NCBI RefSeq assembly: GCF_000304355.2 | Contig: NC_018227.2 | Coordinates: 2,046,001-2,110,000 of the forward strand | Reading direction: 5' to 3' | Length of the DNA: 64,000 bases | Source: Methanoculleus bourgensis MS2 | GTDB lineage: Archaea; Halobacteriota; Methanomicrobia; Methanomicrobiales; Methanoculleaceae | Part shown: one piece after another, positions 14,428 to 53,349 of the stretch | How the letters are laid out: each line of letters starts with the position of its first letter | Numbering within the stretch: the stretch's first letter is position 1 | Notes under the pieces: generated by a model | Databases searched by the model: none | What the model was told of the DNA's origin: nothing | The model's input: only the letters and a program-made list of their open reading frames with translations | Program-made: the position numbers and the translations under genes

Positions 14428-14512
14428 GCGAGGGTTGCCAAGCCAGGTCAAAGGCGCAAGGTTGAGGGCCTTGTCTCGCAGGAGTTCGAGCGTTCAAATC
14501 GCTCCCCTCGCA
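14428..14512 (+). tRNA. tRNA-Leu (GAG anticodon)
   Basis: The 85-nt cloverleaf has acceptor arms GCGAGGG and CCCTCGC with discriminator A, and D-arm GCC...GGC. The anticodon stem CAAGG/CCTTG has loop TTGAGGG (anticodon GAG). A long variable arm (class II) precedes the T-arm GAGCG-TTCAAAT-CGCTC. CCA is not encoded. It reads CUC and CUU. The ~60-nt 5' flank includes a small GCGC-GAAA-GCGC hairpin and an upstream CATATTTAATG possible TATA box (14344-14354). Confidence 0.95.
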
Positions 14513-48188: not shown

Positions 48189-48245
48189 AGGTCTCCTCGA
48201 TTAATTATATAGGTTAAAATGAATATAAAGTTGTTTGCGAGACTT

Positions 48246-48731
48246 ATGCAGTGTGAACTATGCGGTGCTCCCATACAGGGATCACCGAAAACCATTCAGA
48301 TCGAGGGTGCAGAACTCCGTGTCTGCGTCCGATGTGCGAAACACGGTACAGAAGTCCAGCAATCGCGACAGAGGGTTGTCCAGAAAAAAACGGGCATCGC
48401 TGTCACGCAGACCAGAAGAAGGCCGCGGGACGTCTTTGACATGATGGAGGGAGAGATCGTCGAAGACTACGCCGACCGGATTCGTGTCGCCCGGGAAGAG
48501 AAGGAATGGTCCACCCTTGACCTTGCACAGGAAGTTAAGGAACGTGAGGTCCTGATCAAGAAGATCGAGAAGGGTGATCTCATCCCCGAAGACGATCTCC
48601 GGCGAAAACTTGAGAAAGCACTCGATATCAGGCTGATCGATTCAGCCGAAGATACCACTTCCACCGGCGGGCCGGGACGGGTGACCATGACCATCGGCGA
48701 CGTCATAGCGTTTCGGAAGGGCCGGAAGTAG
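48246..48731 (+). CDS. mbf1: Multiprotein bridging factor 1 homologue
   Basis: The 161-residue archaeal MBF1 has a zinc ribbon at the N-terminus (QCELCGAPI, then CVRCAKHG), a basic linker, and a helix-turn-helix (YADRIRVAREEKEWSTLDLA, then EREVLIKKIEKGDLIPE). It is thought to act as a transcriptional co-activator or ribosome-associated factor. ATG 48246 is chosen because homology begins at MQCELCG and AATATAAAG lies ~20 nt upstream. It shares a 57-bp promoter region with the divergent pan gene. Confidence 0.9.
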   Translation: MQCELCGAPIQGSPKTIQIEGAELRVCVRCAKHGTEVQQSRQRVVQKKTGIAVTQTRRRPRDVFDMMEGEIVEDYADRIRVAREEKEWSTLDLAQEVKEREVLIKKIEKGDLIPEDDLRRKLEKALDIRLIDSAEDTTSTGGPGRVTMTIGDVIAFRKGRK

Positions 48732-48933: not shown

Positions 48934-48946
48934 TTTTTATATAAGG
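48934..48946 (+). promoter_or_regulatory. TATA box of the aromatic amino-acid operon
   Basis: TTTTTATATAAGG is centred near 48940. Archaeal spacing puts transcription start at about 48966, exactly the ATG of the leader ORF, so the operon mRNA would begin with ~197 nt ahead of the first biosynthetic gene. Confidence 0.65.
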
Positions 48947-48965: not shown

Positions 48966-49013
48966 ATGCAGGGTGAATGTTTTTTCGCCGGTGACTGCTT
49001 TTACCTCGGTTAA
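48966..49013 (+). CDS. Putative leader peptide 1 of the aromatic operon
   Basis: The 15-codon ORF encodes [15 protein letters not shown]: three Phe and one Tyr among 15 residues. Its ATG coincides with the predicted transcription start, so it would be translated from a leaderless mRNA. It precedes genes for Phe and Tyr synthesis. Such Phe/Tyr-containing leader ORFs are the sensing element of bacterial attenuators; here the role is inferred, and a chance ORF is possible. Confidence 0.4.
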   Translation: MQGECFFAGDCFYLG

Positions 49014-49113
49014 CGGAGTGGCCGCCCTCGCAGAAGCAACACGTCAGTTCTTAACCGCCGGTATCCGTGACTGCGGAGCGGCAGCGTTCTATCGCTATTT
49101 TACCCGGTTTTAA
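48973..49113 (+). CDS. Putative leader peptide 2, overlapping, ending FYRYFTRF
   Basis: In a second frame an ORF with possible GTG starts at 48973, 48991 or 49018 ends at TAA 49113. Its last eight codons are Phe-Tyr-Arg-Tyr-Phe-Thr-Arg-Phe, the densest aromatic run I noticed in any leader here. Codon use is not GC3-biased like normal genes, which fits a control peptide or non-coding sequence. No clear ribosome-binding site fixes the start. Confidence 0.35.
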
Positions 49114-49153
49114 ACCATCCCGGAGACTGTATTCACTCGAAGATCCGGGGGAG
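49103..49153 (+). promoter_or_regulatory. RBS-covering hairpin with two alternative left arms
   Basis: CCCGGA (49119-49124) can pair with TCCGGG (49144-49149), which covers the start of the ribosome-binding site GGGGGAG (49147-49153) of the first biosynthetic gene. A second CCCGG at 49103-49107, inside the last codons of leader ORF 2, can compete for the same right arm. A ribosome stalled on FYRYFTRF would mask that competitor. Folding is by eye. Confidence 0.4.
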
Positions 49154-49162
49154 ATTGTGGTT

Positions 49163-49954
49163 ATGAGAGGAAAAGAGATTCGTCTGGAACGTATTATGGA
49201 TCGGAATACCGGCAGGACTATCATCGTGCCGCTTGACCACGGCGTGACGCTCGGCCCCATCCCGGGGCTGGTCGATGTTGGGAAGACTATCGACCTTGTC
49301 GCCGATGGCGGAGCAAACGCGGTGATCGGTCATCTGGGGCTTGCGCTGCACGGCCACCGTGGGCATGGGCGGGACGTCGGCCTTATCATGCACCTCTCGG
49401 CGAGCACCAGCATCGGCCCTGACCCGAACGACAAGGTGCTCGTAAACACCGTCACAAACGCCTTGAAGATGGGCGCCGACGGCGTCTCGGTGCATATCAA
49501 CGTCGGGGCCGACTCCGAAGCAAAGATGCTTGAGGACCTCGGCAGGGTCGCGGTCACGTGCATGGAGTGGGGGATGCCGCTCCTTGCGATGATGTACCCC
49601 CGGGGCCGGAAGGTCGCGGATGAGCACGAGGTCGAGAGTGTCAAGCTCGCCGCGCGGGTGGCGGCTGAACTCGGTGCAGATATCGTCAAGACCGTCTACA
49701 CCGGGGATCCGGACTCGTTCCGCGAGGTGACCCGGGGTTGCCCGGTGCCGGTCGTGGTCGCGGGTGGCTCAAAGACCGACGACCGCGCGATCCTCGACCT
49801 GGTGGAGGGCGCGATGGAGGGGGGTGCCGCCGGGATATCGATCGGGAGGAACGCCTTCCAGCACCCGGCGCCTGACCGCCTGATACGGGCCGCGGCGCTG
49901 ATCATCCATGAGGGACGGTCGGCAGAGGAAGCGGTAGAGATTCTTGAGATGTGA
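49163..49954 (+). CDS. aroA': 2-amino-3,7-dideoxy-D-threo-hept-6-ulosonate synthase, paralogue 1
   Basis: The 263-residue class I aldolase-like barrel catalyses the first committed step of the archaeal route to dehydroquinate, from L-aspartate semialdehyde and a 6-deoxy-5-ketofructose phosphate. Active-site positions visible are Asp in PLDHGV (~25), Tyr in MYPRG and the Schiff-base Lys in [16 protein letters not shown] lies 9 nt before ATG 49163, and the paralogue starts at the equivalent residue. It is the first gene of the eight-gene operon. FBP aldolases are close relatives, so one of the two paralogues could have that role. Confidence 0.88.
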
Positions 49955-50742
49955 TGAAGATGATTGGAAAAGAGATCCGCCTGGAGCGGATAATGGACCG
50001 GAACACCGGTCGCGCCGTGATCATTCCGATGGATCACGGGTTTACCATGGGCCAGATCGAGGGGCTCCGCAACATGACGGGTATCGTCAGCGAGGTGAGC
50101 GAGGCCGGGGCGAACGCCATCGTGCTCCACAAGGGCATGGTGAAGGGAGGGCACCGGAAACGCGGAAAGGATATCGGTCTCATCGTGCACCTCTCCGCGA
50201 GCACGTCGATGAACCCTGACCCCAATGATAAGGTGCTCGTCTGCACCGTGGAGGAGGCGGTCGCGCTTGGCGCCGATGCAGTCTCCATCCACATCAACCT
50301 GGGCGCGCCGAACGAGTCACGGATGATCGAGTCTGCGGGCGCGGTGGTGCGGGACTGCAACCGCTGGGGGATGCCGCTCCTGATCATGATCTACCCCCGC
50401 GGCAAGGGGATCGACCCCACATCGCCACAGGCGATCGGGCACTGCGTCCGGGTCGCTGAGGAACTCGGGGCCGACCTGATCAAGACGACCTACACCGGGG
50501 ATCCGGCAACCTTCCGCCAGATCACTGAGGCCTGCTCGGTGCCGGTGATGATCGCCGGCGGCGAGAAGGGAGGGGATCTCGAGACGCTCACGACCATCAG
50601 GGATGCCATCGGTGCGGGCGCTGCCGGGGTCTGCATGGGAAGAAACGCCTTCCAGCGCGAAGACCCAGGTCGGTTCATCGGCTCGATCTGCCGGGTGGTG
50701 CATGAGGGTGCAAGCCCGGCCGATGCGCTGGAGCGTGAGTGA
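49954..50742 (+). CDS. ADH synthase family protein, paralogue 2
   Basis: The 262-residue protein is about half identical by eye to the preceding gene ([31 protein letters not shown]). It keeps the active-site residues (PMDHGF, IYPRG, LIKTTYTGD). It arose by tandem duplication. In methanogens this family includes both ADH synthase and a fructose-bisphosphate/6-deoxy-5-ketofructose phosphate aldolase, so the pair may supply and use the sugar precursor. Its start overlaps the upstream stop (TGATG). Confidence 0.85.
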   Translation: MKMIGKEIRLERIMDRNTGRAVIIPMDHGFTMGQIEGLRNMTGIVSEVSEAGANAIVLHKGMVKGGHRKRGKDIGLIVHLSASTSMNPDPNDKVLVCTVEEAVALGADAVSIHINLGAPNESRMIESAGAVVRDCNRWGMPLLIMIYPRGKGIDPTSPQAIGHCVRVAEELGADLIKTTYTGDPATFRQITEACSVPVMIAGGEKGGDLETLTTIRDAIGAGAAGVCMGRNAFQREDPGRFIGSICRVVHEGASPADALERE

Positions 50743-51728
50743 TGAAGCAGTTCTGGGTTGATATCAGGCCGTGGAGCAAGGACCTCGCGACCACCGCGAT
50801 CGAGAGCGGGGCTGACGCCCTGGTGGTGGACGACGCAGGGCGCGTGCGCGAACTCGGGCGGGTGACGACCGTTGCGAGAGAGGGCGACCTCGTCCCCGGA
50901 AAGGACGTCTTCGAGGTTGAGATCGTCGACAAGGCGACTGAGGAGGAGGCGCTCAGGCTCGCCAGCAGGGGCCGGGTCATCGTGCGGATGCGGGACTGGA
51001 CGGTCATCCCGCTTGAGAACCTCGTCGCACAATCCGACCGGATCATCGCCGCGGTCACGACCGCCGATGAAGCAGCGGTCGCCCTGAGCGTCCTCGAGCG
51101 CGGGGCGGCGGGCATCCTCCTCGCAACTGACGACCCGGCGGAGATCCGGCGTGTGGCGGGCGTGATCGCAGGTTCAGGCGCCGAGGTCGCCCTCGTCCCG
51201 TTCGAGGTGACCAGGATCGCCCCTGTCGGCATGGGGGACCGGGTCTGCGTGGATACCTGCTCCCTCCTCGCCGACGGGGAGGGGATGCTCGTCGGCAACA
51301 CCTCCTCGGCGTTCCTGATGGTGCACCCCGAGACCCTGGAGAACCCCTACGTGGCCCCGCGCCCGTTCCGGGTGAACGCCGGGGCGGTGCATGCCTACAC
51401 CCTCCTCCCTGACGGGAAGACCGCATACCTCGCCGACCTCGCGGTGGGTGACCGGGTGCTCATCGCCGAGCATACCGGCGCGACCCACGAGGCGGTCGTC
51501 GGCAGGGTGAAGATCGAGCGCCGTCCGCTCCTCCTCGTCGAGGCGAAGGCAGGTGACGCGAAGGTGAGCCTGGTCCTCCAGAACGCCGAGACCATCAGGC
51601 TTGTTGCGGAGGACGGCAGAGCGGTATCGGTCGTCGATCTAGCGGTGGGCGACCGGGTGCTCGGGAGCGTCGCGGAGGGCGGGCGGCACTTCGGCATCGC
51701 CGTCGCCGAGACCATCCTGGAGAAGTGA
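50742..51728 (+). CDS. aroB': 3-dehydroquinate synthase II (AroB')
   Basis: The 328-residue archaeal enzyme oxidatively deaminates and cyclises ADH to 3-dehydroquinate with NAD. It has the family start KQFWVDIRPWSKDLATTAIE, the central GDRVCVDTCSLLADGEGMLVG and NAGAVHAYTLLPDGKTAYL. It replaces bacterial AroB, as expected in a methanogen. The start ATG overlaps the preceding TGA by one base. Confidence 0.94.
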   Translation: MKQFWVDIRPWSKDLATTAIESGADALVVDDAGRVRELGRVTTVAREGDLVPGKDVFEVEIVDKATEEEALRLASRGRVIVRMRDWTVIPLENLVAQSDRIIAAVTTADEAAVALSVLERGAAGILLATDDPAEIRRVAGVIAGSGAEVALVPFEVTRIAPVGMGDRVCVDTCSLLADGEGMLVGNTSSAFLMVHPETLENPYVAPRPFRVNAGAVHAYTLLPDGKTAYLADLAVGDRVLIAEHTGATHEAVVGRVKIERRPLLLVEAKAGDAKVSLVLQNAETIRLVAEDGRAVSVVDLAVGDRVLGSVAEGGRHFGIAVAETILEK

Positions 51729-52558
51729 CGACGATGCTTGCAGGCATCATCGGCGGCACCGGGCAGATGGGGCGGTTCTTCGCCGGGGTCTTTCGGGCGG
51801 CCGGCTGGGACGTGATCGTCTCAGGGACAAAGACGCCCCTCACCAACCGTGACGTCGCGGAGATGGCTGACCTCGTCATGGTCTCGGTGCCGATCCGCGC
51901 CACCGTCGGGGTGATCCAGGAGGTTGCGGGGCTGCTCTCGGAGGAACAGGTCTTCTGCGACCTCACCTCCCTCAAGGTCGAACCGGTCCGGGCGATGCTT
52001 GCCTCCCGTGCTGAGGTGATCGGGCTCCACCCGATGTTCGGGCCGGGCGCCGTATCGCTCAGGGGCCAGACGATCGTCGCCACCCCGGCCAGGTGCGATC
52101 CCGCGACCCTCGAGGGGCTTCTTTCGGTCTTCCGCGACCAGGGCGCGGCGATCACCCTCTCGACACCGGAGGACCATGACCGGATGATGGCGGTGATCCA
52201 GGGCCTCACCCATTTCGGGACGCTCGCAAAGGCCGAGGCCATCCGCCGGACCGGCGCCGACGTGGATGAGACCCTCTCGTTCACAAGCCCCATCTACCGG
52301 ATCGAGATGGGGCTTGTCGGGCGACTCCTCGCCCAGGACGCGGGGCTCTACGGGGACATGCTCCTGATGAACCCGGCAGTCCCGGAGGTGCTTGCCGCGT
52401 TCGAGGATGCGGTCCGGACACTCCGGGCGATCGTGGAAGGCGGCGACGACGAGCAGTTCCGGGCGTTCTTTGCTGAGAATGCCGCCCACTACGCCTCATA
52501 TCTCGCGGCCGCGACAGAAGAGACCGACGACCTCATCAACCATGTGGTGATGAGATGA
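51725..52558 (+). CDS. tyrA: Prephenate dehydrogenase
   Basis: The 277-residue NAD-dependent enzyme makes 4-hydroxyphenylpyruvate for tyrosine. It has a Rossmann GIIGGTGQMGRFF (~7), VMVSVPI (~51), and the catalytic region GLHPMFGPG with the conserved His. It is a single-domain TyrA without fused chorismate mutase or ACT domain. GTGA overlap with aroB'; ATG 51734 is a possible later start. Confidence 0.92.
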   Translation: MTTMLAGIIGGTGQMGRFFAGVFRAAGWDVIVSGTKTPLTNRDVAEMADLVMVSVPIRATVGVIQEVAGLLSEEQVFCDLTSLKVEPVRAMLASRAEVIGLHPMFGPGAVSLRGQTIVATPARCDPATLEGLLSVFRDQGAAITLSTPEDHDRMMAVIQGLTHFGTLAKAEAIRRTGADVDETLSFTSPIYRIEMGLVGRLLAQDAGLYGDMLLMNPAVPEVLAAFEDAVRTLRAIVEGGDDEQFRAFFAENAAHYASYLAAATEETDDLINHVVMR

Positions 52559-53349
52559 CGGTCCTGACCCTTGGGCCGGCCGGGACGTTCAGCCACGAAC
52601 TCGCCGCCGCACTCTTTGGCGACGATATCGAACTCCTGCCGACGATCCGCGCCATCATCGAGCGTGTGGCGGGGGGTTCTGCCGACGGCCTCGTGCCGAT
52701 CGAGAACTCTGAGGCCGGCGGCGTGGGGGAGACGCTCCAGGGACTCATGGAGTTCGGCGTCTCTATCACGGGAGAGGCCTACATGCCGGTCAGGCACCAC
52801 CTTGCGGCCCGGGAAGATCCTGAGCGACTTATGGTCATCTACGCCCACCCGCAGACGCACGAGCAGTGCTCTATCCTCCTCGGGAGCCTCGGGGTCGAGG
52901 TTGTGCACACGAGCAGCAACGCTGCAAGCGCGGTGGCGATGCAGGGAGACAGCCGCGCCGGCGCGGTCATCCCGGAGATGGCGGCGACGATCTACGGTCT
53001 CCCAATCGTTCTTCGGGATATCCAGAACAATAGGGAGAACACCACCCGGTTCGTGCAGATATCCGCCACTCCCCGCGAGGGTGCCCGGTGCACGAAGTGC
53101 AGCCTCCTCGTGGACCCCGGAACCGACCGGGTCGGGCTCCTCGCCGAGATCCTCGGGGTCTTTGCCCGCCGTGGCATCAACCTGACCAGGATCGAGTCGC
53201 GCCCGTCCCGGCGCGGGATCGGCAGGTATGTATTCTTCATCGACCTCGAGATCTCAGAAGGATGGCAGGAGGCAAAGGAGGAACTCAAAAGGATGACCAC
53301 CGTCAGGGAACTCGGGTGCTACGCTCGCCTGGAGGTGCCGGGCATATGA
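52555..53349 (+). CDS. pheA: Prephenate dehydratase with ACT domain
   Basis: The 264-residue enzyme converts prephenate to phenylpyruvate for phenylalanine. It begins LGPAGTFSHELAA, contains the catalytic TTRFVQIS (~165), and ends with an ACT domain (LLAEILGVFARRGINLTRIESRPSR) that in homologues binds Phe for feedback inhibition. No chorismate mutase domain is present. It overlaps tyrA and aroA by 4 nt each. Confidence 0.94.
   Translation: MTVLTLGPAGTFSHELAAALFGDDIELLPTIRAIIERVAGGSADGLVPIENSEAGGVGETLQGLMEFGVSITGEAYMPVRHHLAAREDPERLMVIYAHPQTHEQCSILLGSLGVEVVHTSSNAASAVAMQGDSRAGAVIPEMAATIYGLPIVLRDIQNNRENTTRFVQISATPREGARCTKCSLLVDPGTDRVGLLAEILGVFARRGINLTRIESRPSRRGIGRYVFFIDLEISEGWQEAKEELKRMTTVRELGCYARLEVPGI

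Follow-up and report, generated by a model that had tools for sequence, protein, structure and literature searches.

In bacteria, the attenuators pheL, trpL and hisL set a short open reading frame (ORF), rich in codons for the product of the operon, beside an RNA structure that precedes the first gene, and the leader described here has the same general layout. It differs from these attenuators in being archaeal, in lying at or near the 5′ end of its RNA, and in being split over two reading frames; moreover, most predicted folds show its structure overlapping the ribosome-binding site, and no terminator is evident. A second group of related systems uses programmed +1 frameshifting. In prfB (RF2) and antizyme, overlapping ORFs, a YUU U codon and a slow A site are combined for a regulatory purpose. 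The leader likewise has +1 overlapping ORFs, a shift-prone YUU U codon and a slow A site, but here the A-site codon is one for Phe or Tyr and not a stop, two sites stand in tandem, and the product is a leader rather than an enzyme or a factor. A third is frameshifting at ‘hungry’ codons, known for decades as an error, which in E. coli occurs while the ribosome awaits a scarce aminoacyl-tRNA, as we propose here.

The passages of a 2016 frameshifting review that deal with such cases (PMC5009743) state that no functional starvation-specific trans-frame products are known, and regard the frameshifting that occurs on pheL of E. coli as incidental. They name one leader, that of ermC, in which a frameshift, induced by telithromycin, carries the ribosome onward so that the start of the next gene is unfolded; unlike the case here, its trigger is a drug and its site is not a conserved programmed one (PMC5009743). 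Frameshifting in archaea is described for fucA1 and magnesium chelatase (PMC8211752). In the portions of that review covered here, the archaeal cellular cases are −1 or of unstated direction, none lies in a leader, and the word ‘attenuation’ is absent from the text. Term searches of PMC13158618 and PMC11456600 returned nothing on such a leader, and an archaeal leader-peptide attenuator of this kind was not found in searches of the open-licence PubMed Central literature.

The leader lies in a stretch of 64,000 nucleotides from Methanoculleus bourgensis MS2 (the window), whose 2.79 Mb genome is a single contig. It is placed between the aMBF1 gene and a Phe/Tyr biosynthesis operon (Table 1). The enzymes of this operon form the archaeal route to chorismate and onward to Tyr and Phe, and both branch enzymes are present, prephenate dehydrogenase for Tyr and prephenate dehydratase for Phe, each called with a score below the curated cut-off of its best model. 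The ORF that follows the dehydratase gene and runs to 54614 we take, from its translation, to encode EPSP synthase. The tandem 2-amino-3,7-dideoxy-D-threo-hept-6-ulosonate (ADH) synthase paralogues (49163-50742) are 53% identical and both score above the family cut-off. When the whole window was searched with Rfam at gathering scores, the matches were RNase P RNA and one tRNA only; a riboswitch or T-box leader was rejected, since Rfam gives no match to the leader. No comparable leader was evident at trpE of the same genome, where the ORF of the upstream gene extends into the 500 bases before trpE.

Table 1. Positions of the leader features and neighbouring genes within the window.
Feature	Position	Strand	Description
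aMBF1 gene	48219-48731		upstream neighbour of the leader
TATA box	48936..48943	+	TTTATATA, from sequence; operon promoter
ORF A	48966..49013	+	ATG 48966, TAA 49011-49013; 15 codons; predicted to be leaderless or nearly so
ORF B	48973..49113	+	frame +1 relative to A; 46 codons, GTG 48973 to TAA 49111-49113
Proposed +1 shift site 1	48981..48986	+	TTT (P site) TTC (Phe, A site); next frame-B codon TCG
Proposed +1 shift site 2	48999..49004	+	TTT (P site) TAC (Tyr, A site); next frame-B codon ACC
Aromatic tail FYRYFTRF	49087..49110	+	five F/Y among eight codons
Predicted hairpin, 7 bp	49118..49150	+	fold; 49118-49124 pairs with 49144-49150, directly 3′ of the stop of B
Shine-Dalgarno GGGGGAG of first structural gene	49147..49153	+	from sequence
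ADH synthase, first gene	49163..49954	+	TIGR01949, 345.8 bits, above cut-off
Remainder of operon	49957..53349	+	profile search: ADH synthase paralogue, 3-dehydroquinate synthase II, prephenate dehydrogenase, prephenate dehydratase

We found the leader across the order Methanomicrobiales, where 130 split leaders (129 distinct) from 27 genera could be scored; this set was built by fetching the region upstream of ADH synthase in further genomes. The pattern for the start of A matches 99 of the 232 genomes of the order (22 of 40 genera), or 103 genomes and 23 genera if CTT is permitted at codon 6. In a set of 392 genomes the motif occurs in 48, every match lying within the order, and none of the 309 genomes from the phylum's other classes has it. 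Across the genomes of 84,980 species the pattern returned 91 stretches, the relatives so found including Methanoculleus, Methanocalculus, Methanolinea and other Methanomicrobiales; of the 80 listed, 61 belong by title to methanogens or archaeal bins and 19 to bacteria, the latter being taken as chance matches. Outside the 130 are G108 (a fused leader), G056 (the contig ends inside B), genomes for which no leader was fetched, and G128, G132 and G164, which were not classifiable. Also outside are five genomes whose gene start was missed by the script, in which A and an open B are present (G097, G099, G100, G101 and G119), and G191, missed by the regular expression, in which A is present. For G053, the script set the start of A upstream of the conserved ATG, leaving the frame and site counts unaffected. 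That this is a real, order-wide leader is nearly certain.

The position of the TATA box places the predicted transcription start at 48966, the ATG of ORF A, or within a few bases of it. This arrangement recurs: in 121 of the 130 split leaders the centre of the best-scoring TATA match lies 25.5-33.5 nt upstream of the ATG (26.5-30.5 nt in 116), while eight of the remaining cases are weak and one lies elsewhere. ORF A is conserved in all 130, across the 27 genera, and is made up of two repeats of an 18-nt unit. Leaders of genera g30 and g34, and several of g40, have three units with the first one decayed, and in these 23 leaders the slip sites are the last two units.

The two proposed slip sites are invariant in form. 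Site 1 is YTT TTY and site 2 is YTT TAY in 130/130 split leaders, with the A-site codon always Phe at the first and always Tyr at the second, and the spacing between them is exactly six codons throughout. Among 106 tabulated two-unit leaders, codon 6 is TTT in 101 and CTT in five, and codon 12 is TTT in 89 and CTT in 17; TTC, CTC, ATT and GTT are absent from both positions. A P-site tRNA on TTT finds a perfect match again after moving one base forward. Bacterial prfB uses CTT followed by T as its shift codon, which is our basis for taking CTT to TTT re-pairing as workable. A tRNA-Leu(GAG), which would read CTT, is encoded in the window at 14428-14512. As a possible stimulating signal, many leaders also carry a GGTGA-like sequence four bases upstream of the slip codon. 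Two hallmarks of programmed +1 frameshifting, a conserved +1 relation of the overlapping ORFs and a conserved site for one-base-forward re-pairing in the P site, are thus present in 130/130, the latter at both sites. The overlap codes in both frames, so part of this invariance would follow from dual coding as well.

The earlier note had described two overlapping ORFs in different frames at this place, and they are indeed there, A with 15 codons and B in the +1 frame; as it pointed out, the two cannot be read simultaneously because they overlap in different frames. The GTG listed for B is merely its first possible start. Past the stop of A, frame B contains no stop in 4,751 codons of the 130 split leaders, compared with 214 in 4,751 codons in frame A, 170 in 4,621 codons in the third frame and 177.5 (∼178) expected from base composition, which excludes an ORF B left open by chance. 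Of the ORFs that end beyond the stop of A, the one with the most aromatic end lies in frame +1 in 130/130. Over the last 12 codons, the share of F/Y/W is 0.558 in B but 0.104 and 0.200 in the remaining frames, and every one of the 130 leaders has its highest value in B. A short ORF upstream of an operon, with many codons for that operon's product, is one hallmark of a leader-peptide attenuator, and it is found here.

The middle of B has a different character. Its F/Y/W share (7.1%) is no richer than those of the other frames (8.3% and 10.5%), and in 34 aligned leaders of the Methanoculleus group its pN/pS is 0.73, compared with 0.94 and 0.51 in the other frames. Amino-acid conservation as proof of coding is thus unsupported for this part, and because the amino acids are not conserved, openness is the sole sign that it is read; the middle of B looks like a passage that needs to stay open, rather than a functional peptide. 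The near-neutral codon bias that had been ascribed to B fits this middle part, but not the tail: in genus g1 the tail has 91 TTT, 23 TTC, 69 TAT and 0 TAC codons, i.e. almost only TTT/TAT, opposite to the usage of eight neighbouring genes (17 TTT, 42 TTC, 4 TAT and 32 TAC). Frame-breaking indels in close relatives had been named as grounds for refutation, and the outcome speaks against it: B is open in 34/34 leaders of the Methanoculleus group (g1). Both ORFs are conserved across the order, which leaves the suggestion that one of them may be irrelevant without support.

Between the stop of B and the first gene, the predicted hairpin overlaps with its 3′ arm the GGGGGAG ribosome-binding site. 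In the window its z-score is 0.01, and the hairpin is weak alone in this genus (median z of −0.65). Over the 130 leaders, folded from the stop of B to the ATG of the gene, the median z is −1.42 with 39/130 below −2, the first paired base lies a median of 2 nt past the stop of the tail, and three or more of the six bases of the ribosome-binding site take part in pairing in 98/130 predicted folds, a pairing figure that has no control of its own. Consensus folds contain double-change pairs in four of six genera (g14, g32, g34 and g38) and none in g1 and g40; in Methanoculleus (g1), hairpin covariation was not found, the consensus fold having only four pairs. Control of translation start by the hairpin is plausible from these models, with support weakest in Methanoculleus.

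In 31 further genomes, from six genera, a single uninterrupted leader ORF of 41-73 codons starts at a promoter-proximal ATG and ends in an aromatic tail. These fused leaders precede the same gene, ADH synthase, as the split ones. Most of those in g19 and g21 start like A itself (MCGE, MCGEC, MCGD or MCGA), and in the fused leaders of family f5 the tail is read from an ATG with A's own start, MCGE(C). On a tree of ADH synthases with 116 rows (21 fused and 95 split, genus g1 being thinned), the fused/split label needs five changes, of which four are forced by strongly supported branches. In the best pairwise alignments of genus g9 with its split sister genus g6, G046 lacks a base at site 1 and G047 lacks one at site 2, and the pairwise alignment of G108 puts the missing base within the T run of site 1; each of these placements is the first of three to seven equally good ones. 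In a joint mafft alignment, the gap falls at site 2 for G046 as well as for G047. T runs are mutation hot spots as well, so these positions support, but do not prove, a ribosomal frame change there.

The same tree joins the ADH synthases of g13 with those of g21, apart from g13's own family, and given this grouping across families the operon may have moved between the two. Members of both genera (L279 and L292-L297) share a fused leader, most ending in FWFRQ and a stop, and after this tail comes a long strong hairpin of the CTGCACCAGA/TCTGGTGCAG type with a T-rich stretch. This arrangement suggests termination in g13 and g21, instead of control of translation start. Further afield, aromatic-rich leader ends (e.g. 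FWFSFRYFYYRFSY and a stop) precede ADH synthase homologues in L315, L316, L330 and L329, which belong to families f31 and f9 of other classes. These leaders are apparently single ORFs, the aromatic end lies 89-93 nt upstream of the homologue in three of the four, and L316 has a second ATG 10 bases upstream in a different frame.

From the two ORFs and their frame relation, the sites with their spacing, the open frame B, the tail and the fused relatives, we infer a frameshift, its dependence on starvation and a hairpin step. A and B probably form a single leader, whose halves are linked by +1 frameshifting under shortage of Phe or Tyr. The broader reading, in which starvation-induced +1 frameshifting is the sensor and the tandem Phe and Tyr sites are an OR gate throughout the order, we hold to be slightly more likely than not. 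The leader would sense charged Phe-tRNA and Tyr-tRNA. The RNA would begin at or beside the ATG of A, and ribosomes would translate A. With Phe and Tyr plentiful, both sites would be read in frame and the ribosome would stop after 15 codons, leaving the rest of the leader untranslated; the hairpin could then form and hide the ribosome-binding site of the first gene, or, alternatively, the untranslated RNA could be terminated. With Phe scarce, the ribosome would pause at site 1, its P site on TTT or CTT and its empty A site on the Phe codon, and the P-site tRNA would slip one base forward onto TTT, moving the ribosome into frame B. Scarcity of Tyr would cause the same slip at site 2, whose Tyr codon would no longer be read after a slip at site 1. 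Since a slip at either site leads to the same frame, the leader would act as an OR gate for the two products of the operon. A ribosome in frame B would reach the run of Phe and Tyr codons ending beside the hairpin, where stalling or slowing would keep the hairpin open and the operon expressed. The predicted shift product is 48 amino acids long; the site-1 form is MQGECF-SPVTAF...FYRYFTRF, and the site-2 form also ends in FYRYFTRF.

The earlier note had suggested that, if both ORFs are real, stalling on A could decide initiation on B. That stalling on A decides whether B is read seems probable, but a link through initiation is not supported: B is without a plausible start, and 31 relatives have the tail in one uninterrupted frame with an ATG close to the promoter. 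In its full form this alternative comprises two separately started leaders, with a ribosome stalled or terminating on A deciding the start of B at its own GTG or ATG, and we consider it unlikely, though it has evidence to draw on. A GTG or ATG stands three codons ahead of the shared TTT in 129/130 split leaders, and the overlap, including the n-TT at the slip codons, would stay constant as well if two ORFs with starts of their own both coded there. In the g30 and g34 leaders the candidate GTG or ATG of B lies near base 26, compared with base 8 or so elsewhere. Against separate starts, the distance of B's possible start from the promoter varies, whereas that of A's ATG does not. B also lacks a clear ribosome-binding site, as had been remarked: no Shine-Dalgarno sequence was seen before GTG 48973, which is ∼7 bases from the predicted 5′ end of the RNA. 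Nor would separate starts need both slip motifs or their spacing. We favour frameshifting from A to B over a second initiation, because B has no plausible start, A's ATG is fixed relative to the TATA box, and in the fused relatives the tail is reached from a promoter-proximal ATG.

A frameshift from A to B could also proceed at a constant rate or under some other control, for instance the state of tRNA-Phe modification, with the tail alone acting as the sensor, as it would in the fused relatives. Fused leaders evidently work without a switch, and wye-type modification of tRNA-Phe is linked to frameshifting at U-rich sites in the relevant passages of PMC5009743. A constant rate does not call for Phe in the A site of site 1 and Tyr in that of site 2, which are seen in 130/130 leaders, and we judge this explanation improbable, much as we do separate starts and marginally more so. 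RNA polymerase slippage, by which some transcripts would lose a base within the T run and so carry A and B in frame, is very unlikely: the window and most leaders do have a T6 run, but site 1 is CTT TTC, a four-T run, in 9/130 leaders, the T run at site 2 is often no longer than four, and the Phe and Tyr codons and the site spacing are left unexplained. That the T-rich tail is a transcription terminator with its F/Y codons as a by-product, as the U-rich tails and the strong hairpin and T run after the tail in g13 and g21 might suggest, is largely refuted and has next to no probability, given that the aromatic codons are confined to frame B in 130/130, although a terminator could still act alongside the leader.

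Starvation-induced frameshifting from A to B, if true, would put hungry-codon frameshifting to functional use and would be an instance of leader-peptide attenuation in Archaea, in which archaea couple the translation of a leader to the expression of an operon. As a candidate for this, the leader is conserved in over 20 genera, with its fused relatives as natural controls, and it would give a compact frameshift site for studying the role of tRNA-Phe modification.
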